This document shows positions 10,082-40,455 of a stretch of DNA of 64,000 nucleotides, piece after piece. Position numbers and translations under genes: made by a program. Where the stretch lies: NCBI RefSeq assembly GCF_030758935.1, contig NZ_CP132333.1:1488992-1552991 (forward strand). The letters run 5' to 3'. How positions within the stretch are numbered: the first letter of the stretch is position 1; every line of letters starts with the position of its first letter. The stretch comes from Geothrix sp. PMB-07 (GTDB lineage Bacteria > Acidobacteriota > Holophagae > Holophagales > Holophagaceae). The notes under the pieces are model-generated. The model had not been told where the DNA came from. It made no database searches and saw nothing but the letters and a program-made list of their open reading frames with translations.

Positions 10082-10911
10082 GCGATGCCTGCAACCGCAC
10101 CCCCTTCTGGCAGCGGCAGCCCCGGCTGCCCCTGGAGATCCACCGTTTTCTGCAGGACCGCATGGAGGCGGCGCTCCATGCTCCGGAGGCCCGGCAGATT
10201 CTGGTCTGGCCCACCATCCTCGGGGCTCCCGCCCTGCGCCAGGCCCATCCGGAGGGCGTGCCTGAGCCGCTGCTGCTGAACCATGCGGCGCGCATGCTGG
10301 GGGCCTTGGGTCATCACGATCCGGCGGGCGCCTGGCAGGCCCATCTCGGCACCTGGTCGGATACCGCCGAACAGGGGCAGGAGGGCGGCTGGCGCCCCTC
10401 GGCGGCCTGGGGCGCCTGGGGCCCCCTCGTCAGCCTGCGCAGCGGCTGGCAATTGGCGGCGCTTACACCCTTGTCTCCAGATGCCACCTATGCGCTGGCT
10501 TCGGGTGTGTCGCTCTTCAACCACGGGCTCTTCCACGAGAGCCATGACGCGCTGGAACCGCTGTGGACCTCGGCCCAGGGTGGCCTCAAGGATCAGCTGC
10601 AGGGACTCATTCTCCTGGCCGGTGGCTACCACCATCTGCAGCAGCACAACCTCGGAGGTCTGCGGGCCCTGTGGGAAGAGGCCCTGGTCCGACTCGAACC
10701 CTGCGGTGGTCGCGTGGCCGCGCCCTGGGGCGAGGTCCGCGCCGAGGCGGCGCTGGACCTGACGCGGCGGCGGCTGGACAGTGCAGGGCAACGGCTGGAC
10801 CTGGCGGTTCATTCGCCGGACCATGAGAAGCGCCTGACAGATGACGCGGATGAAGCTGCGGTCTTTACATCCCTCTGGGATCTGGATCGCCCCACCTGGG
10901 AGCTGGCATGA
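10078..10911 (+). CDS. DUF309 domain protein
   Basis: A 277-aa cytoplasmic protein with a C-terminal DUF309 helical domain: LFNHGLFHESHDALEPLWTS near residues 148-167 followed by LQGLILLAGGYHHLQQHN. The H-x3-H/E pattern of this family is intact. The N-terminal half (about 1-135) is not recognised. It starts at ATG 10078 overlapping yaaA (ATGA) and ends overlapping nadB (ATGA). DUF309 proteins have no established biochemical role, so none is claimed. Confidence 0.8.
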   Translation: MSDACNRTPFWQRQPRLPLEIHRFLQDRMEAALHAPEARQILVWPTILGAPALRQAHPEGVPEPLLLNHAARMLGALGHHDPAGAWQAHLGTWSDTAEQGQEGGWRPSAAWGAWGPLVSLRSGWQLAALTPLSPDATYALASGVSLFNHGLFHESHDALEPLWTSAQGGLKDQLQGLILLAGGYHHLQQHNLGGLRALWEEALVRLEPCGGRVAAPWGEVRAEAALDLTRRRLDSAGQRLDLAVHSPDHEKRLTDDADEAAVFTSLWDLDRPTWELA

Positions 10912-33091: not shown

Positions 33092-33136
33092 TGGTGGACC
33101 TGATCAGGATCGAACTGACGACCTCTGCATTGCGAA
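33092..33136 (-). repeat. Left attachment site: 45-bp tRNA-Ala 3' remnant
   Basis: These 45 bp are identical to 40232-40276, the 3' half of tRNA-Ala(CGC) from the anticodon loop to CCA. Identity stops at 33137. It is the tRNA end left behind when the element integrated. Confidence 0.93.
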
Positions 33137-33245
33137 AGCGAAAAAAAGGTGATAGACGGATAATGTCGGAAGGCATAAGAAACTGATAAAACACGCACAT
33201 AGTAGTTTATCTTCCGTTTGCATATTATACGGTTTGGGACTACCT

Positions 33246-33264
33246 TTTGAGCACCGTTTGAGCA
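33246..33264 (+). repeat. Paired TTTGAGCA repeats near the left end
   Basis: TTTGAGCA occurs at 33246-33253 and 33257-33264, 11 bp start to start. The 20-bp block 33245-33264 is repeated exactly at 40145-40164 near the right end in the same orientation. These look like arm-type integrase or excisionase sites; the left pair also lies in the integrase leader. Confidence 0.7.
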
Positions 33265-33283: not shown

Positions 33284-34621
33284 ATGGCCAAAACCAAGCG
33301 CAGCGCCAAATTCGACACTTCAACCGCCCGCAAGAAATTGGCTCGTGGGAAGGTGCATCAGGAGCCCCTGAAGGATGGGCAGTATCTCTGCTACCGGAAA
33401 CCGGAGAGCGGGGCCGCTGGTTCCTGGTCTGCCCGGTGGCGGTATGAGGGGCAGATCCTCCAGACCAAGCTAGGCGCAGCCGATGACCACCACGCCTCGG
33501 ATGGGGAGACAATCCTGAGCTACAAGGAAGCGCAGGATAAGGCGAAGAAGTGGTTTCAGGAACGGACAGAGCAGGCCCTTGAAGGTGAGGGCATCACCAT
33601 TCAAAAAGGCCCCTACACCGTGGCCCAGGCTGTCGCCGATTACCTGCGAGAGATGAAGAACAAGGGGCGCAAGTCCATTGCTACCTCGGAGAGCTACGCG
33701 AAAACGCACATCATTCCCGCCCTGGGTGAGATCCCCCTGGCGAAGCTGAACAAGCGCAAATTGGAAGATTGGCTTTCATCGGTGGCCGCGAAGCCTCGAA
33801 TGAAAACCGGATTCGGGATGAGCGAGGTCTCTGAGACCTGGGCCAAGAAACCGACCGAGGATCAGCTTCGAGCCCGAAAGAACACGGCGAATCGAATCCT
33901 CTCGATCCTGAAGGCCGCCTTGAATCTCGCCCTCAGAAACACCAAGGTTTCGAGCCATCGAGCGTGGATTCACGTTGCCCCGTTCGAGTCCGTGGTGAAG
34001 TCTCGCGTCCGATTCCTGAGCCAGGAAGAGGCCCAGCGCCTTGTGAATGCTTGCCCCCCAGACTTCAAAAGCCTTGTGCAAGGTGCCCTCCTGACGGGAG
34101 CCCGATACTCCGAACTGGCAAGGCTTCAGGTGCGGGACTACAACGCCACGGCGGGAACCATCCTCATTGCCGAATCGAAAAGCGGTAAGTCCCGTCAGAT
34201 TGTCCTGACGGATGAAGGCCGGTCCCTACTCGACGGGCTGTGTGCCGGGAAGGTAGCCGATGCAGCCGTGTTCCAGCGAGACACCTGGAAGCGGACCCTT
34301 CGGAAGGATCTGGGCTCATCATGGGGGCACTCAGACGCCGCAACCTTCATGGAGGTCTCCTGCAAGGCCGCCAAGGTCGGATCGGTGCGCTTCCACGAAC
34401 TCAGACACACCTATGCCTCCATGCTCGTGAACGCTGGATGCCCCTTGGTCTATGTCGCTGCCCAGCTTGGCCACGCTGATACCCGGATGGTCGAAAAGCA
34501 CTATGGGCACTTGGCCCCGAATGCCCTTGCTGATGCCGTGCGAAAGCTGATGCCAGACCTGGGCTTGGTGAAGCGCCCGAAGGTTGCGGGCCTGAAGATC
34601 AAGACGGGGGGTGCCTCGTGA
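33284..34621 (+). CDS. int: Tyrosine recombinase / integrase
   Basis: A 445-aa phage-type integrase. An N-terminal arm-binding region (about 1-100, with YRKPESGAAGSWSARWRYEG) is followed by a core-binding domain (about 110-215) and a catalytic domain. All active-site residues are visible: R in GARYSELARL, K in ESKSGKSRQI, H-x-x-R in HELRHTY, H in LGHADTRMV and the nucleophile Y in EKHYGHL. It should recombine the 45-bp tRNA site. Its TGA overlaps the next gene's GTG start. An AT-rich region with TATTAT/TATACG at about 33221-33230 may hold its promoter. Confidence 0.95.
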   Translation: MAKTKRSAKFDTSTARKKLARGKVHQEPLKDGQYLCYRKPESGAAGSWSARWRYEGQILQTKLGAADDHHASDGETILSYKEAQDKAKKWFQERTEQALEGEGITIQKGPYTVAQAVADYLREMKNKGRKSIATSESYAKTHIIPALGEIPLAKLNKRKLEDWLSSVAAKPRMKTGFGMSEVSETWAKKPTEDQLRARKNTANRILSILKAALNLALRNTKVSSHRAWIHVAPFESVVKSRVRFLSQEEAQRLVNACPPDFKSLVQGALLTGARYSELARLQVRDYNATAGTILIAESKSGKSRQIVLTDEGRSLLDGLCAGKVADAAVFQRDTWKRTLRKDLGSSWGHSDAATFMEVSCKAAKVGSVRFHELRHTYASMLVNAGCPLVYVAAQLGHADTRMVEKHYGHLAPNALADAVRKLMPDLGLVKRPKVAGLKIKTGGAS

Positions 34622-35241
34622 CCCCTGAGCAGCGCCTTGAAGGCTACTTCCCGCAAGCCCTGGCCATCCTGGGCATCCCTGCCGATCCCCGCGCCTGGAC
34701 AGACTTTGGAGAGACCCAGGCCCGTGCCTTCGCTGCCTTGGAGCTTCCCCGCCGCCACGCCCGCCAGGATGCTGCCCAGGATGCCGGGGAGCCCCCGCGC
34801 CTGGAGCGTGATGAGGCCGCGAAGGTGGCCCGCCTTGCCCGTGATCTGCGGGAAGCCCTCCAGGATGCAGGCCCAGACCTTCAACGCTCCATCGCGGGCC
34901 TGTGGGAGGGCCGCACAGGTGGCAGAGAGGGTGCCAGCTTGGCCTTGTGGGCAGAGGCCGCCCCTGCGCTTCCCGCTGCCCTGATGGGTGGCCTGGAGGC
35001 ACTGGAGGGCATCGCACGGGACAGAGCTGAACACCTGCGGGGGAGCATCGCCCGTCAGCACAAGCCGGAGACCCCGGATGCCGCCCTCGTGCGGGAAGCC
35101 CTGGCCCTGGCCAAGCGGTGCGGGGTGAGCCAAGAAAAGGGGCTTCAACTGGCCCGCCTCGCGTTCGAGGCCAGCACGGGCAAGGCCCCCAAGGGAGAGG
35201 ACTGGGGCCGATCTGCGAAGCGTAGGCAGTCCGTCAAGTGA
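34618..35241 (+). CDS. Unknown element protein, coupled to the integrase
   Basis: A 207-aa soluble, Ala/Arg-rich, mostly helical protein starting at GTG 34618 within the integrase stop (GTGA). It begins MTPEQRLEGYFPQALAILGI and has a C-terminal helical segment REALALAKRCGVSQEKGLQLA that could form a helix-turn-helix-like unit. I do not recognise the family. Tight coupling to the integrase suggests a role in element maintenance or control. The next gene begins about 100 bp later after a repeat-bearing spacer. Confidence 0.75.
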   Translation: MTPEQRLEGYFPQALAILGIPADPRAWTDFGETQARAFAALELPRRHARQDAAQDAGEPPRLERDEAAKVARLARDLREALQDAGPDLQRSIAGLWEGRTGGREGASLALWAEAAPALPAALMGGLEALEGIARDRAEHLRGSIARQHKPETPDAALVREALALAKRCGVSQEKGLQLARLAFEASTGKAPKGEDWGRSAKRRQSVK

Positions 35242-35343: not shown

Positions 35344-35559
35344 ATGAAAACCGCCACCGTCCCAACCCCTGAGCCGTCCCTGGTTCCCGAACGATTGATG
35401 ACCCTGAAGCAGGTTGCAGACGGGCTCGGAGTCACCCTTTCGACTGTCTACGTCCTGCGAGGCCGTGGCGAGTTTGAAGTGGTGAAGGTCGGGGCCAAGG
35501 CCGCCCGTGTCCGTGCGACTGAATATGCCCGCTACATCGGCACCCTGAAGAAAGGGTAG
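35344..35559 (+). CDS. Small HTH protein (excisionase/AlpA-like)
   Basis: A 71-aa protein with a winged-helix HTH typical of MerR-like excisionases: MTLKQVADGLGVTLSTVYVLRGRGEFEVVKVG, shown here as LKQVADGLGVTLSTVYVL, then ATEYARYIGTLKKG. Such proteins bend DNA for excision or regulate element genes. Start ATG 35344 has GGAGGA 3 nt upstream of AAC-ATG. The repeats in its leader are possible binding sites. It is followed 3 bp later by the replication-like gene. Confidence 0.8.
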   Translation: MKTATVPTPEPSLVPERLMTLKQVADGLGVTLSTVYVLRGRGEFEVVKVGAKAARVRATEYARYIGTLKKG

Positions 35560-35562
35560 GGC

Positions 35563-36444
35563 ATGACCCCCGCGCCGTCTGGGCAGGAGGCGCAACAGAA
35601 CGACGCGACGACCTCGGGACCGACCACCCCTCTTGCCTTCTTCAAAGTCTGGACCCTTGAAGTCCAGGGTGATCCAGCGTTTCAGGCCATGACAGACGCA
35701 GACTTGGGCTTCCTCATCCGCTGCAAGTGCGTTGCCGCCCGGAGCGGGGGATTCATCCCAGCCGATGGGAAGGCGCTTGGAAGGCTGCTCTCAAGGCGCT
35801 CTGATCATGCCCTTAAGAGCCTGTCTAGGGTGGCCTTCCTCTTCGCGGAAGATCCATCTAGACCGGGCTTCCTGTTGATCCCAAGCGTCCTTTCCGAGGT
35901 GGCCGCATACGCCAAAAAGTGTGGTGCCAACAGGGAAAACGGCAAAACAGGTGGCCGCCCACGGAAAAACCCAGTGGGTTCCTGTGGTGAAACCCAAGCG
36001 GTTTCCAATAAGAAGAAAGAAGAAGAAGAAAAGAAAAAGAATCCCCCAAAGGCCCCCAGGGGCACTCGGAAGGGTGAGGTGATCGTCACCTTCCTTCGAG
36101 GGGAAGAATCCGCTTCTGCTTTCGAGATGACCTGGAAGAACTGGCCCGCCTCAAAGCACGTTGACCGTGACGGCAACGAATCCATGCGAGTGAAGCGCGG
36201 GGATCGCATGGCCGCTGAGCGGTGCTGGCAGGCCATCGTTGATTCAGGAGAGGCCACGCCTGATCAGCTTCGCCGGGTGGCCGAACTCTACGTCACGAAG
36301 CACCCCAAGGTGGCCGAAGGCTTTGTTCAGCACGTCAGCACCTTCCTTGCACCTGCCGGTGGCCGTTGGGCCGAAGGTCTGCGAACTCTCCGGGCCTTTG
36401 AACATCAACAGGCCGCGCCCCACCCCGAATCCGCCATGCCCTGA
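35563..36444 (+). CDS. Replication-protein-like element gene
   Basis: A 293-aa protein. The N-terminal part (about 22-125), AFFKVWTLEVQGDPAFQAMTDADLGF split over one domain, resembles winged-helix domains of phage replisome organisers (YdaU/DUF1376-like), with LGRLLSRRSDHALKSL as a likely recognition region. A lysine/glutamate-rich linker (NKKKEEEEKKKN, about 148-160) joins a C-terminal domain with AFEMTWKNWPASKH and AAERCWQAIVDSG, as in helicase-loader or initiator proteins. The assignment is from layout, not a firm family match. Confidence 0.6.
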   Translation: MTPAPSGQEAQQNDATTSGPTTPLAFFKVWTLEVQGDPAFQAMTDADLGFLIRCKCVAARSGGFIPADGKALGRLLSRRSDHALKSLSRVAFLFAEDPSRPGFLLIPSVLSEVAAYAKKCGANRENGKTGGRPRKNPVGSCGETQAVSNKKKEEEEKKKNPPKAPRGTRKGEVIVTFLRGEESASAFEMTWKNWPASKHVDRDGNESMRVKRGDRMAAERCWQAIVDSGEATPDQLRRVAELYVTKHPKVAEGFVQHVSTFLAPAGGRWAEGLRTLRAFEHQQAAPHPESAMP

Positions 36445-36674: not shown

Positions 36675-37322
36675 ATGAAAACCCTCGCTGAACTCCGAGG
36701 CATCAAAACCGCACTCCAGGGGCTCGCCTCCTCCGCAGAGGCCGCCTACAAAAAGGTCAACGTCCAGGCGGATGCCGTGAAGGGTGACACGCACCTTAGC
36801 CCCGCTGGCATGAAGGTTCGCCTGGATGAACTCTGCAAGCCTATCGAGGATGCCCTTGGCCAGATGTTGGGAGAGGCCGAACGCCTGCTTCGTGACCTGG
36901 ACGGGCAGGAGGTCTACTGGGGTAATCCCTGGCTTGCCTTCCGCCTGACTCACCTGTCCACCACCTGGACCCCGGAGCGGATCGCCGCCCTCCAGGTGGA
37001 AACCGATCACCTGCCCGAGCCCATGCTGGACCTCGCGGTCAACGCTGCCATCGCCCTCCAGGATTGCGGCCGCGCTTACACCCTGAGCCTTCGCAAGGAA
37101 CCCCTCGCCGCCCTTCTGCCCCAAGATCCCGAGCCCATGGAAACGCTGCGAATCGCCAAGGGGTTCCATGCCGAGGTGGAACGGGCCTTCAAGCTGGTGA
37201 GGGTCAGCGTCAAGGAACTGCCCGGAGAGGGTGCCATCTTCGGCGGTCACGCTGACAAGCTCGCCATGGCCCGCAGGATCGAAGGTGGACGGGCCGCAAA
37301 CGTGCGACTGGCCCCCAAGTAA
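36675..37322 (+). CDS. Unknown element protein, 215 aa
   Basis: A 215-aa soluble protein with AAAGGA before ATG 36675. It begins with a helical region (LAELRGIKTALQGLASSAEAA) and has an unusual NPWLAFRLTHLSTTWTPERIA stretch in the middle. No signal, membrane segment or known motif is visible. It is the last gene before a repeat-rich, gene-free spacer. Function unknown. Confidence 0.75.
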   Translation: MKTLAELRGIKTALQGLASSAEAAYKKVNVQADAVKGDTHLSPAGMKVRLDELCKPIEDALGQMLGEAERLLRDLDGQEVYWGNPWLAFRLTHLSTTWTPERIAALQVETDHLPEPMLDLAVNAAIALQDCGRAYTLSLRKEPLAALLPQDPEPMETLRIAKGFHAEVERAFKLVRVSVKELPGEGAIFGGHADKLAMARRIEGGRAANVRLAPK

Positions 37323-37381
37323 TTCACCCGCCACACACGAGGGGGCCGCGCCCTCTCTTCAAAATCCACACGCTTGAAAAC

Positions 37382-37483
37382 ATGCACCCAAGGGCCGAAA
37401 CGCCCGCCCCGCCTGGATCTTCGGCCCTTGGGACTGCATCAAACCGCCCTTAGCTGTCGCGTTTCTGCACTCAAACCGCCCTT
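37382..37483. repeat. Large inverted repeat plus direct repeats inside the element
   Basis: CCCAAGGGCCGAA (37387-37399) is perfectly complementary to TTCGGCCCTTGGG (37420-37432). ATGCA/TGCAT at 37382-37386 and 37435-37439 extends the stem past a 2-base bulge. Then TCAAACCGCCCTT occurs twice, at 37439-37451 and 37471-37483. It fills the 173-bp spacer before the next gene. It may be an origin (ori or oriT) or a control region of the element. Confidence 0.6.
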
Positions 37484-37495
37484 GGAGGCCCCCAA

Positions 37496-37741
37496 ATGAC
37501 ACGGACCCCAGCGCCCAAGCAACCCATCCGGGGCCGCAAGCTGGCCACCGCCAAAGACGCCATGAAGGCCACCGCCTGGGCTCTGCGGTCACTGGAGGCC
37601 CGAAAGATCACCCCCACCGCCGCCGCGTCCTACTTCCGAGGGGTCGGGATTCTCTTGAAGGCCCTGGAAGTGTCCGACATTGAAGGCCGCCTGAACCGAC
37701 TGGAATCAATTGCCAAGCTGGAGAACCCCGATGCCTTTTGA
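37496..37741 (+). CDS. Small basic element protein, 81 aa
   Basis: An 81-aa protein starting MTRTPAPKQPIRGRKLATAK, basic at its N-terminus and helical after residue 20. GGAGG lies about 10 nt upstream. It overlaps the following gene by 11 bp. The basic N-terminus and the adjoining repeat-rich DNA would fit a DNA-binding accessory protein, but no motif confirms this. Confidence 0.65.
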   Translation: MTRTPAPKQPIRGRKLATAKDAMKATAWALRSLEARKITPTAAASYFRGVGILLKALEVSDIEGRLNRLESIAKLENPDAF

Positions 37742-38204
37742 GACCTTCACCCCGCGCCCCCGCGCCACCCTTCGCCGTGGTCCCACCGGGGCCATCATCG
37801 CCGCCTCGATCAAGGTGCATCGCCGCCCCGGTGAGAGTGCCGCCGCCTTCCAATGCAGGCTCCAGAGGGACTTCGGCGCGGTCATGGAGGCCCACCGGGA
37901 GCATGAGCCCCTGGCCCCGATGCCCGAAGGGGACTTCGGCGGGGAAACCCCTTCGATCCCTACCGCGCCCGTCTGCAAGGTGGAAGGCTGGATTCGGAAC
38001 GGATTCAACGCCATCCAGGGTGCCCGCCTGCGAACGATGGGACCGAATGGCCGTTCGTTCGAGGTGATGATGCGCGGCATGGATGAGATTGGGGGCTTGT
38101 ATGGGTTCCTCAATCGCCTCCAGGCCGAACACAACGCCCTGATCCCACAGGATGCCTTTATCGAGGCCCTGGCCCGGTTCTCCTGCCACGAGGATGAGCC
38201 GTGA
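37731..38204 (+). CDS. Unknown element protein, 157 aa
   Basis: A 157-aa protein from ATG 37731 with GGAG 8 nt upstream, starting inside the previous gene. It begins MPFETFTPRPRATLRRGPTG and has a helical C-terminal half (GLYGFLNRLQAEHNALIPQD). The stop overlaps the next GTG start by 4 nt. No family is recognised. Confidence 0.7.
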   Translation: MPFETFTPRPRATLRRGPTGAIIAASIKVHRRPGESAAAFQCRLQRDFGAVMEAHREHEPLAPMPEGDFGGETPSIPTAPVCKVEGWIRNGFNAIQGARLRTMGPNGRSFEVMMRGMDEIGGLYGFLNRLQAEHNALIPQDAFIEALARFSCHEDEP

Positions 38205-38494
38205 CCTACCGCGCCCGCCTTCATCGCCTGGAGACCATCACCCGCCCCGTCTGGGTTTGTGCATTCTTTCCCGCTGGGAGTGCCGAGCCCACGAGCGCCC
38301 ATGCCTTCGATGGGAAGCAACGCCACGAGTCATTCACCCGCGCCGATGGTGAGTCTGTGGAAGCCTTCCGGGGCCGCCTCCAGTCCAGAGGGGCAGACCT
38401 TCGCCGCGCTGATCTCATGGCCCGCGCCTTCGCCGCTGTGATGCAGGGGGGCTTCATGGACCCCGAACCAGAGCCCGATGAGGTGATGCCGTGA
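38201..38494 (+). CDS. Unknown element protein, 97 aa
   Basis: A 97-aa protein starting at GTG 38201 in a GTGA overlap. It contains RADGESVEAFRGRLQSRGAD, partly similar to a stretch of the previous protein (HRRPGESAAAFQCRLQRD), which hints that the two share a short module. Acidic C-terminus. It is coupled to the next gene by another GTGA overlap. Function unknown. Confidence 0.7.
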   Translation: MTYRARLHRLETITRPVWVCAFFPAGSAEPTSAHAFDGKQRHESFTRADGESVEAFRGRLQSRGADLRRADLMARAFAAVMQGGFMDPEPEPDEVMP

Positions 38495-38808
38495 CCTATC
38501 CGCCCTGCGAGCTTTCCATCCGGCGATCCTGGAAGCTGGAGGCCGAAGGTGGGAACCATGCTGAGATGACCGACCGGGCCGCCCTCGCTGTTCTCCAGAT
38601 CCTTCGGGAAGAGGCCGAACCCGGCGACCTGATCTTCCTCAAATTCAGGCGGTCGAACGGGTTCCCAGAGACTTTGCGCCTCGTGGTTGAACCTGGGCCG
38701 CGCCTGCTCTGCCCATCCCACCCCCCGGAATTGATCGGGGACACCGTTCGCCGCGTGCAGGCCGTCTATGGGCTCAAGTCTGTGGTCCACTTCGCCGCTA
38801 CCACCTGA
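38491..38808 (+). CDS. Unknown element protein, 105 aa
   Basis: A 105-aa protein from GTG 38491 (GTGA overlap), the last gene of the main plus-strand run. It contains LAVLQILREEAEPGDLIFLK and RRVQAVYGLKSVVHFA. No membrane segment or known motif is seen. A strong terminator follows 42 bp downstream. Confidence 0.7.
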   Translation: MTYPPCELSIRRSWKLEAEGGNHAEMTDRAALAVLQILREEAEPGDLIFLKFRRSNGFPETLRLVVEPGPRLLCPSHPPELIGDTVRRVQAVYGLKSVVHFAATT

Positions 38809-38850
38809 CCATCGGCCCCAGGGATCGTGAGTGCCACCCTGGGAACCGTG

Positions 38851-38888
38851 CCCCCCTCCAGACCTGCCCCTGGAGGGGGGTTTCTCTT
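38851..38888 (+). terminator. Strong intrinsic terminator ending the element operon
   Basis: CCCCCCTCCAG (38851-38861) pairs with CTGGAGGGGGG (38870-38880), 8-nt loop, followed by TTTCTCTTTG. It closes the integrase-to-38808 transcription run and isolates the cargo gene. Confidence 0.9.
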
Positions 38889-38977
38889 TGTTGGGCTGAT
38901 TCGCTCCTGCCCGTAATCAACTCTTGGGTCGTCATCACGGGACACCTGATAGGCTGAACCGAAAACAGGGAGCAATC

Positions 38978-39703
38978 ATGGGACTTTGGGCCGGTAGCTT
39001 GCTCGCGCTTTTGTTGGTCATGCCACTGGTGGGGCAGACCGCGACGAAGAAGGCGAAGCCCCCGGCAGTCAAGAAGGCACCGCTTCCAGACACCCCGCCT
39101 TTCGAGCTTGCTTCCGAATGGGTGCGTGAACTGACCGCCTTCAGAGGCATCCTGGCCAAATATCTGGAAGAGAAGAAGGAAGGGAACGAACCGATGATGG
39201 ACACCATCCGTCACGGGTCACGGATGAAGCTAGAACTTCAACTGAGCATCAACATGCTCAAAGGCATGAGACTGAACTCTGAACAGTTCAAAGTCCTGCT
39301 TCCGTTTGTGATTGGCAGTTATCAGGGGAAGATCGCGCTTCATCAGGAAGTGAATGAGATTTCAGGGAAATTCATCGTCCCGAAGGATGGGGTGGACTAT
39401 GGCAAACTCGCCGCCCGGATGCCTGAAATCACCGCTGCCCTTGAAGACATAGACAAGGGGCTGTTCGATCAAGCCAACATGATGTTTTGCATGATGCTCA
39501 TTGACCAGAAGGCGAACAGTCAGGGGCATCTCGACCACCTGCTAATCACCAAGGCCGAAAGAAAAACCTTGGTGGATCGCATTGATTCGGGGTTTGGTGA
39601 CAGCCTCAATGACAAGGTGAAGAACTACAACGCCTCCTCTGCGGTGGTCTTGCGAGGTCTCCTGGTAGGGGCTCATAAGAGTGCAGAAGATCCTTGGGAT
39701 TAG
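38978..39703 (+). CDS. Exported cargo protein of the element
   Basis: A 241-aa protein with a Sec signal (LWAGSLLALLLVMPLVG, cleavage near residue 20) followed by a Lys/Pro-rich linker and a mostly helical domain rich in Met and Lys, for example MLKGMRLNSEQFKVLLPFVI and ANMMFCMMLIDQKAN. AGGGAG lies 7 nt before ATG 38978. It stands alone after a terminator, so it needs its own promoter, which I could not define. Base composition is visibly less GC-rich than its neighbours. It is probably periplasmic. Family unknown. Confidence 0.75.
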   Translation: MGLWAGSLLALLLVMPLVGQTATKKAKPPAVKKAPLPDTPPFELASEWVRELTAFRGILAKYLEEKKEGNEPMMDTIRHGSRMKLELQLSINMLKGMRLNSEQFKVLLPFVIGSYQGKIALHQEVNEISGKFIVPKDGVDYGKLAARMPEITAALEDIDKGLFDQANMMFCMMLIDQKANSQGHLDHLLITKAERKTLVDRIDSGFGDSLNDKVKNYNASSAVVLRGLLVGAHKSAEDPWD

Positions 39704-39875
39704 GGGCAGGAGCTTCCCCCCTGCGTCAATTTGCCCTGTCTGACCCTCTCGGAGTGGGAAGGGTGCAGAGAGGGTGCCAAGGGGCCTTAAAACGCAAGCC
39801 AGGGGCCTTCCTGGGCATTATTCCGTCATCTTCCGCCAATGTATGGGAACACTCAGACCCAGCATTGACGCGGGT
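39704..39875. other. Gene-free stretch at the element's right side
   Basis: No supported gene is seen. The DNA has repeated GGGGCCTT words (AAGGGGCCTT near 39780 and CAGGGGCCTTCCTGG near 39801) that can form small hairpins, possibly the end of the cargo transcript. Confidence 0.4.
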
Positions 39876-40076
39876 TCACGATGAATAGACCCCCTCGCAC
39901 CTGCCCCATTGGATGGGCCGCCCTCGCCTGAGAGCCCGTCTGAGCCGCTGGGCAAGCTGTGGCGTCCAGGCCGTGCCGAAGGGAACGATGGAACCCTCAA
40001 AGGCCCGGTCGTATGCCTCGATCAACCGGATACAGGCCCGTGTCTCCCTCTCTTGCCGTTCCGCCGTCCGGTTCAC
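39876..40076 (-). CDS. Possible small gene next to the right attachment site
   Basis: A 66-aa minus-strand frame starting at GTG 40076 with GGGAGG about 5 nt upstream. The peptide includes RETRACIRLIEAYDRAFEG and LAQRLRRALRRGRPIQWG, a basic helical C-terminus. It points away from the right end into the element and lies 69 bp inside the repeat pair at 40145-40164. No family is recognised; support is the ribosome site and protein-like composition. Confidence 0.4.
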   Translation of the reverse strand: MNRTAERQERETRACIRLIEAYDRAFEGSIVPFGTAWTPQLAQRLRRALRRGRPIQWGRCEGVYSS

Positions 40077-40145
40077 CTGACCCTCCCACTGGAGAGGATA
40101 TGCCCGATGTTGCCCGGCACCATCCAAGCCGATCCGGGACTGGGT

Positions 40146-40164
40146 TTTGAGCACCGTTTGAGCA
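40146..40164 (+). repeat. Paired TTTGAGCA repeats near the right end
   Basis: TTTGAGCA at 40146-40153 and 40157-40164. The 20-bp block 40145-40164 is identical to 33245-33264. It lies 67 bp inside the right attachment core and is a likely arm-type recombinase site. Confidence 0.7.
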
Positions 40165-40204
40165 GGAGGCCATTTGCTAAAAAACCATGCCGATTAAAAA
40201 CAAG

Positions 40205-40230
40205 TAGCCCCTTGATTTCTCAAGGGGCTT
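40205..40230 (-). terminator. Element-supplied terminator for tRNA-Ala
   Basis: AGCCCCTTGA and TCAAGGGGCT make a 10-bp stem; on the minus strand the loop is GAAA and TTGTTTTTAA follows shortly. It begins right after the CCA end of the intact tRNA and differs from the host-type terminator at 33063-33088. Confidence 0.75.
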
Positions 40231-40231
40231 T

Positions 40232-40276
40232 TGGTGGACCTGATCAGGATCGAACTGACGACCTCTGCATTGCGAA
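40232..40276 (-). repeat. Right attachment site (45 bp, inside tRNA-Ala)
   Basis: Identical to 33092-33136. This copy came with the element and restores the tRNA 3' half from the anticodon loop to CCA. Confidence 0.93.
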
Positions 40277-40307
40277 CGCAGCGCTCTCCCAGCTGAGCTA
40301 CAGGCCC
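40232..40307 (-). tRNA. tRNA-Ala (anticodon CGC)
   Basis: The minus strand reads GGGCCTGTAGCTCAGC and ends CAGGTCCACCA, 76 nt with encoded CCA. The anticodon loop TTCGCAA gives CGC. The acceptor stem has the G3-U70 pair that identifies alanine tRNAs. It is the integration target of the 7.1-kb element. Confidence 0.96.
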
Positions 40308-40317
40308 ACGAACCCTT

Positions 40318-40345
40318 AGTCTACCTCGGCCATTCCAACCGTCAA
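40318..40345 (-). promoter_or_regulatory. Promoter of tRNA-Ala
   Basis: On the minus strand, TTGACG (40340-40345), a 16-bp spacer and TAGACT (40318-40323). The predicted start is about 4 nt before the tRNA. Confidence 0.75.
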
Positions 40346-40359
40346 TGTTTGATCGGAAA

Positions 40360-40382
40360 CGGCCCCCCCGCGAGGGAGGCCG
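40360..40382 (-). terminator. Hairpin after korB
   Basis: On the minus strand CGGCCTCCC and GGGGGGGCCG pair around TCGC and are followed by TTTCC. It lies about 75 nt past the korB stop, just before the tRNA-Ala promoter. Confidence 0.6.
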
Positions 40383-40455
40383 CTGGAATGGCGGTCAGGC
40401 GGCATAACCCCCGCCGGGAGTCGACTTCGAACGCCTCACCGTCACCGGCGATTGG

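Follow-up and report, generated by a model that had tools for sequence, protein, structure and literature searches.

The gene at positions 38978–39703 (forward strand) of the 64,000-nucleotide stretch of Geothrix sp. PMB-07 DNA analysed here (the window, from a genome of 4.24 Mb on a single contig) is moron-like cargo of a mobile element. The reading that best accounts for the data, to which we give a probability of about 0.6 as a whole, is that of a rare, separately terminated cargo gene whose product would be exported to the periplasm as a helical protein, bind a ligand or partner there and provide an envelope trait. On this reading a rare accessory gene, set off by a terminator from the main gene run, lies towards the right end of an element integrated at a tRNA-Ala gene, and its relative travels as an integron gene cassette in what is probably the same genus (a Holophagaceae genome that appears to be of Geothrix type). 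The two proteins form a family that carries no name in the libraries searched, with members in two gene-moving systems of what looks to be one genus.

The open reading frame starts with ATG, encodes 241 amino acids plus a stop codon and is preceded by AGGGAG ending 5 nt before the start codon; no other gene of the element lies between it and tRNA-Ala. Starting instead at a TTG at 38924 would give the N-terminus extra basic residues, but this option was rejected, with no ribosome-binding site seen before that codon. Upstream of the gene, an intrinsic terminator with a 12-bp stem and a T-rich tail (38850–38881, forward strand) closes the main gene run of the element. Scanning 38700–39900 returned three terminator-like sites against 1.1 (s.d. 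1.1) in shuffled sequences, two of the three corresponding to this hairpin, and the segment 38830–38900 folds with an energy of −35.1 kcal/mol compared with a shuffle mean of −27.3 (z = −2.55; 3 of 200 shuffles were as good). A promoter scan covering the sigma-70 type only found no candidate on either strand of 38700–39900. The GC content falls from 65.2% in the window and 61.4% in the element to 53.3% in the gene. A preliminary description of this DNA had reported the reading frame, a strong terminator before it, its lone position and a GC content lower than its surroundings, and all of these are confirmed by the data above. Identities between the window protein and its only relative (see below) are 0.57, 0.64 and 0.35 at codon positions 1, 2 and 3, respectively, over 228 codons, and this lower identity at the third position, together with the existence of a full-length homologue that is 42% identical, points to a real coding gene under constraint.

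Hydrophobicity in the window protein peaks at the N-terminus, with a 15-residue mean of 2.23 compared with a best value of 1.29 after residue 35. The residues before the hydrophobic core (MGLWAG) include no Lys or Arg and the basic, Lys-rich cluster comes after the core, a charge pattern atypical of a Sec signal. The relative has an Arg at position 2 followed by an N-terminus with about 10 hydrophobic residues, and a second stretch at residue 154 (1.84) matches that N-terminus (1.86) in hydrophobicity. Neither protein has a Cys within its first 40 residues, and hence neither has the lipobox of a lipoprotein. The signal peptide, which the preliminary description had called clear, is therefore upheld as a hydrophobic and signal-like N-terminus but not in respect of the Lys or Arg expected before the core, and the protein is plausibly exported. 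Alternatively, the N-terminus might be an uncleaved segment of a membrane-anchored or cytoplasmic protein, as the missing basic residues before the core and the Lys-rich stretch after it would allow; given the Arg at position 2 of the relative, and a hydrophobic run there that is short for a usual anchor, we regard this as unlikely, albeit well short of far-fetched. We favour a product that is most likely cleaved on export and free in the periplasm as a helical protein. Its composition had been described as Met/Lys-rich, of which the lysine half is right (10.0% of residues 22–241) and methionine, at only 4.5%, is mildly rich.

Two AlphaFold runs gave mostly helices with mean pLDDT values of 54 and 56, which are too low for firm claims about the fold, so that a helical protein is suggested rather than established. 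The first model had no match at E ≤ 0.001 in either the PDB or BFVD by Foldseek, and searches of the PDB gave nothing below E = 0.37 by sequence and nothing by profile. Structure comparison with the second model (pLDDT 56) placed the ligand-binding domain of the chemoreceptor McpS first (2yfa; Z = 12.5, rmsd 2.6, 121 residues) and a second chemoreceptor domain at rank 5 (6db1; Z = 10.7). These matches would fit a periplasmic ligand-binding or sensor-like helical bundle that resembles chemoreceptor ligand-binding domains and scavenges or binds solutes. However, the tool states that helical bundles ordinarily score about 13, which the best match falls short of, and the same list has designed bundles at Z = 12.0 and 11.4; the model is also of low confidence and Foldseek found nothing with the first model. 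We consider so specific an assignment distinctly improbable. For the favoured reading of an exported helical protein we would guess at a more general binding role, with a ligand or partner recognised by the conserved C-terminal part (MFCxMLIDxKxNSxGxLDHLLxTKAxR...FGDxL...PWD) and a conditional envelope trait as the outcome.

No convincing match to the window protein was found in Pfam, PHROGs, NCBIfam or PADLOC (best E = 0.17), in agreement with its earlier description as unrecognised; the PADLOC models gave no family at E ≤ 1. The Pfam hits Sec2p (E = 0.2) and Clavanin (E = 0.23) were taken as chance. A stretch reading LNSEQ led us to consider the LTXXQ/Spy-CpxP family, which we take to be periplasmic, and it was rejected, being absent from the Pfam lists at E ≤ 10 both for the window protein minus its N-terminus and for the relative, each of which returned one chance family. 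Among 93 genomes of the class, a family model is positive in two, the window's own genome and G363, a Holophagaceae metagenome-assembled genome (MAG) that is listed under the window's genus and that we infer to be of Geothrix type. The relative in G363 (L011:9992–10696) is 42% identical over its full length and shares the terminal PWD. Identity rises from 35–39% in residues 1–160 to 55% in residues 161–212 and is 45% in residues 213–241; the family has two known members, and these statements on conservation rest on that one pair.

Of 60 relatives, only the window's own genome carries the gene. In the phylum, the single protein found 20 of 396 genomes at E ≤ 0.1 with just the window's own genome and G363 passing 1e-3, and 10 of the other 19 alignments begin within the first 18 residues, in the hydrophobic N-terminus. 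With a two-row model, 4 of the 396 pass E ≤ 0.05; two of these are new (E = 0.003 and 0.026), match over partial stretches and were taken as chance. The 396 genomes were drawn from a larger group, and only candidates that pass a loose first look are scored in these searches. Neither the 50,697 phage records nor the plasmids searched contain a relative of the window protein at E ≤ 1. At E ≤ 10 the relative as query retrieved two plasmid and two phage records (E = 0.4–7) and the last 86 residues retrieved one plasmid record (E = 8); the best plasmid record, from a Streptomyces plasmid (24% identity, E = 0.4), has no meaningful alignment to the window protein and was dismissed. Scans of IMG/VR viral contigs gave no relatives of the window protein and none of two other proteins of the element, and scans of genome contigs gave none with the single protein and the Holophagaceae MAG alone with the alignment; such scans reach only sequences that have short peptide patterns in common with the query. 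A wide chromosomal distribution with a housekeeping role, which the preliminary description had named as the finding that would speak against cargo, is not supported, as the two positive class genomes carry the gene in one element and one decayed integron array.

The host element spans about 7.1 kb between two copies of a 48-bp sequence from the 3′ part of tRNA-Ala(CGC), which differ by one mismatch (98% identity). The left copy, attL, lies at 33092–33139 and the right copy, attR (40232–40279), forms the 3′ part of the tRNA gene itself (40232–40307, reverse strand), which was identified by ARAGORN and Rfam RF00005. The genes in between all lie on the forward strand and begin with a tyrosine integrase of 445 aa (33284–34621; PF00589, 8.8e-24; phrog_1 integrase, 2.2e-57) with relatives in 826 phage records, every one of them below 60% identity. 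The integrase is followed by a 207-aa protein (34618–35241) that matches no family at E ≤ 0.001 in Pfam, PHROGs, NCBIfam or PADLOC and is also present in the sister element described below. A 71-aa helix-turn-helix protein (35344–35559), whose near-identical sister copy matches PF12728 HTH_17 at 5e-06 (27.1 bits, cut-off 27), may be excisionase- or AlpA-like to judge by its size and place. Next to it lies a 293-aa, weakly primosome-like protein (35563–36444; phrog_16304 of unknown function, 1.3e-06; phrog_9327 primosomal protein, 3.6e-04), which is 97% identical in the sister element and has no match at E ≤ 0.01 in phages and plasmids. Five small genes (36675–38808; 215, 81, 157–164, 97 and 105 aa) complete the main run; none matches a family at E ≤ 0.001 and each has a counterpart in the sister element. 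Just inside the two att ends lie 29-bp repeats (33236–33264 and 40136–40164; 90% identical), which may be arm-binding sites of the integrase.

Comparison of the element DNA with the 93 class genomes gave one near-identical element among the matches listed, in the congener G002, where it also lies at tRNA-Ala(CGC). At the integrase end, 3.6 kb align at 98% identity, and long aligned blocks are 94–98% identical; the last gene of the main run, of 105 aa, is 87% identical and the terminator stem is the same. The G002 element is without the cargo gene, 25 bp standing in the place of about 820 bp of the window: after TTTCTCTTTGT there follow 25 bp and then the TTCCCCCCTGCG found 3′ of the cargo gene in the window. 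By BLAST alone, 17 bp are left between its two blocks in G002 (locus L042). The alignment with L042 sets the insert at 38891–39713 on the forward strand, with the left edge known to 1–2 bases and the right edge at 39713/39714. The earlier view of the gene as cargo of the element is thereby strengthened, the gene lying inside the att repeats and the one sister element found among the matches listed lacking it. Two elements cannot separate gain in the window from loss in G002; the lower GC content of the gene would favour gain. The two elements also differ in the 215-aa gene (window 36675–37322, L042:3125–3781), which has been exchanged or has diverged, its counterpart being only 34% identical.

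A 16-bp inverted repeat marks the edges of the insert, the left arm (38903–38918, forward strand) lying about 12 bp or less from the left edge and the right arm (39698–39713, reverse strand) at the right edge, where it overlaps the last codons of the cargo gene. The arms are complementary at 15 of 16 positions, a match equalled by none of 400 Markov pairs and by 1 of 600 random window pairs of the same geometry. On this evidence the insert could be a small mobile unit that is non-autonomous and ends in 16-bp inverted repeats, but the repeat was noticed after the fact, has no other copy in its own genome at up to one mismatch and has an arm that overlaps a conserved gene end; nor is there a clear target duplication, and GCTCCTGCCC is missing from the relative's locus even with one mismatch allowed. 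We judge a mobile unit of this kind very unlikely.

Moron or cargo genes are carried by prophages and phage satellites. The window gene resembles these in being an extra gene that lies after a terminator, has a lower GC content and is not in the sister element; it differs from them in that no capsid, terminase or satellite hallmark was found, that the sigma-70 scan gave no promoter and that no trait is known. Among the nine element proteins scanned against PHROGs at E ≤ 0.001, two match (the integrase and the 293-aa protein) and seven do not, and none is a capsid, terminase or packaging protein. The term satellite-like, which had been applied to the element, accordingly finds no direct support in its integrase, helix-turn-helix protein and weakly primosome-like protein, and neither does the suggested effect of the cargo protein on phage entry, the envelope or competition. 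A superinfection-exclusion or anti-phage envelope factor, carried as the moron of a phage satellite and blocking phage adsorption or DNA entry in the periplasm, would suit a rare, separately terminated gene that stands last in an integrase element and encodes an exported-type N-terminus. Set against this are the lack of any PADLOC match, the absence of relatives from the phage records at E ≤ 1 and from the viral-contig scans, the unsupported satellite status of the element and the location of the relative in an integron array and not a prophage, so that an anti-phage role is improbable, slightly more so than the chemoreceptor-like assignment.

The relative in G363 lies among repeats with GCCTAAC and GTTAGGC cores. 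A covariance model of attC built from a congener (model R1) matches on both sides of the gene and on its strand, at L011:9791–9907 (42.1 bits) and 10679–10826 (37.0 bits), the latter overlapping the last 3–17 bases of the gene; with filters off, the downstream match becomes 10691–10826 (34.9 bits). A third site in the locus scores 16.2 bits (E = 0.06). The upstream attC is without a good right core and the downstream attC without a good left half, and with each site thus defective at one end the integron array is a decayed one. By these matches the relative is a gene cassette, a single gene with an attC, if an imperfect one, on either side. That a single attC was split by the gene was set aside as less likely, as each of the two matches covers the model's middle. 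No integron integrase (IntI), which a complete integron needs, lies over the cut-off in G363, a MAG that may be incomplete; there are 12 matches to TIGR02249, the best at 4.2e-21 (76.5 bits compared with 265 bits).

Model R1 was made from 28 attC of 124 bp from the array of congener G207, in which a simple scan gave 30 ends; 28 of the 30 were aligned, with the first and last left out. The model matches 33 places in the 19.9-kb G207 locus L063 (G207:C2:359500–379400). Long chromosomal integron arrays occur in the genus, the end motif being present in 36 of the 93 class genomes with up to 59 copies in one (G257); the reversed motif, used as a control, occurs in none of the 93. An IntI over the cut-off is found in 46 of the 93, and the window's own genome has two along with 14 attC-end matches. 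Integrons are known in the Acidobacteria, for which an attC model exists as described in PMC8352920, and the arrays seen here agree with these chromosomal integrons in having an attC family of about 124 bp and in the IntI of 46 of the 93 genomes; the array of the relative differs in being decayed and in lying in a genome whose IntI matches all fall short of the cut-off. Under the names Geothrix and integron, the sole literature match was a record on class 1 integrons in sewage (PMC4482650).

At the window gene, with filters off over 37000–40400, no attC scored above 7.2 bits (E = 0.46), a result that weighs against the descent of this copy from a cassette. The left edge of the insert, TTTG|TTGGGC, reads GTTGGGC and fits the GTTRRRY core, which raises the alternative that direct insertion by IntI brought a cassette into the element, with a secondary GTT-type site as the target and a later loss of the attC. 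The IntI and attC ends of the host genome and the cassette nature of the relative would be in keeping with this, but there is no attC at the right edge, G002 has different bases at the left edge, and chance would put such a 7-base core at one or the other of two sites about once in 500, so that the core is weak evidence alone; we hold direct insertion to be unlikely, to much the same degree as an anchored or cytoplasmic product. The broader proposal that a cassette from the chromosomal integrons of the genus moved into a phage-satellite-like element, which now spreads an exported protein of the envelope with a protective role for its host or for itself, competing phages being one conceivable threat, seems to us very doubtful.

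Exported proteins are common in cassettes, signal peptides being found on 11.6% of Xanthomonas cassette proteins in the account given by PMC12444791. The present family is similar in that its proteins are small, of exported type and of no known family and that the only relative found has attC-model matches on both sides, and different in that the window copy is without attC and lies in a tRNA-integrated element. Taken alone, the gene at 38978–39703 is another orphan among cargo genes. Should its product prove to be exported and to act in the envelope, the pair would offer a small, testable case of accessory envelope genes circulating in the phylum, and if the window copy did come from a cassette, it would represent direct gene flow from integron arrays to integrase elements.

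Some minor observations concern the surroundings of the two copies. The 11-mer TTTCTCTTTGT, found in G002 as well as at the insert's left edge in the window (38881–38892), recurs in the attC downstream of the relative (L011:10751–10761), probably by chance in pyrimidine-rich DNA. Near the relative, L009:10278–12398 encodes a 706-aa protein with many repeated units that look zinc-ribbon-like by eye, and the decayed integron array has next to it a serine resolvase/invertase (PF00239, 3e-39), encoded by L009:3494–4090.
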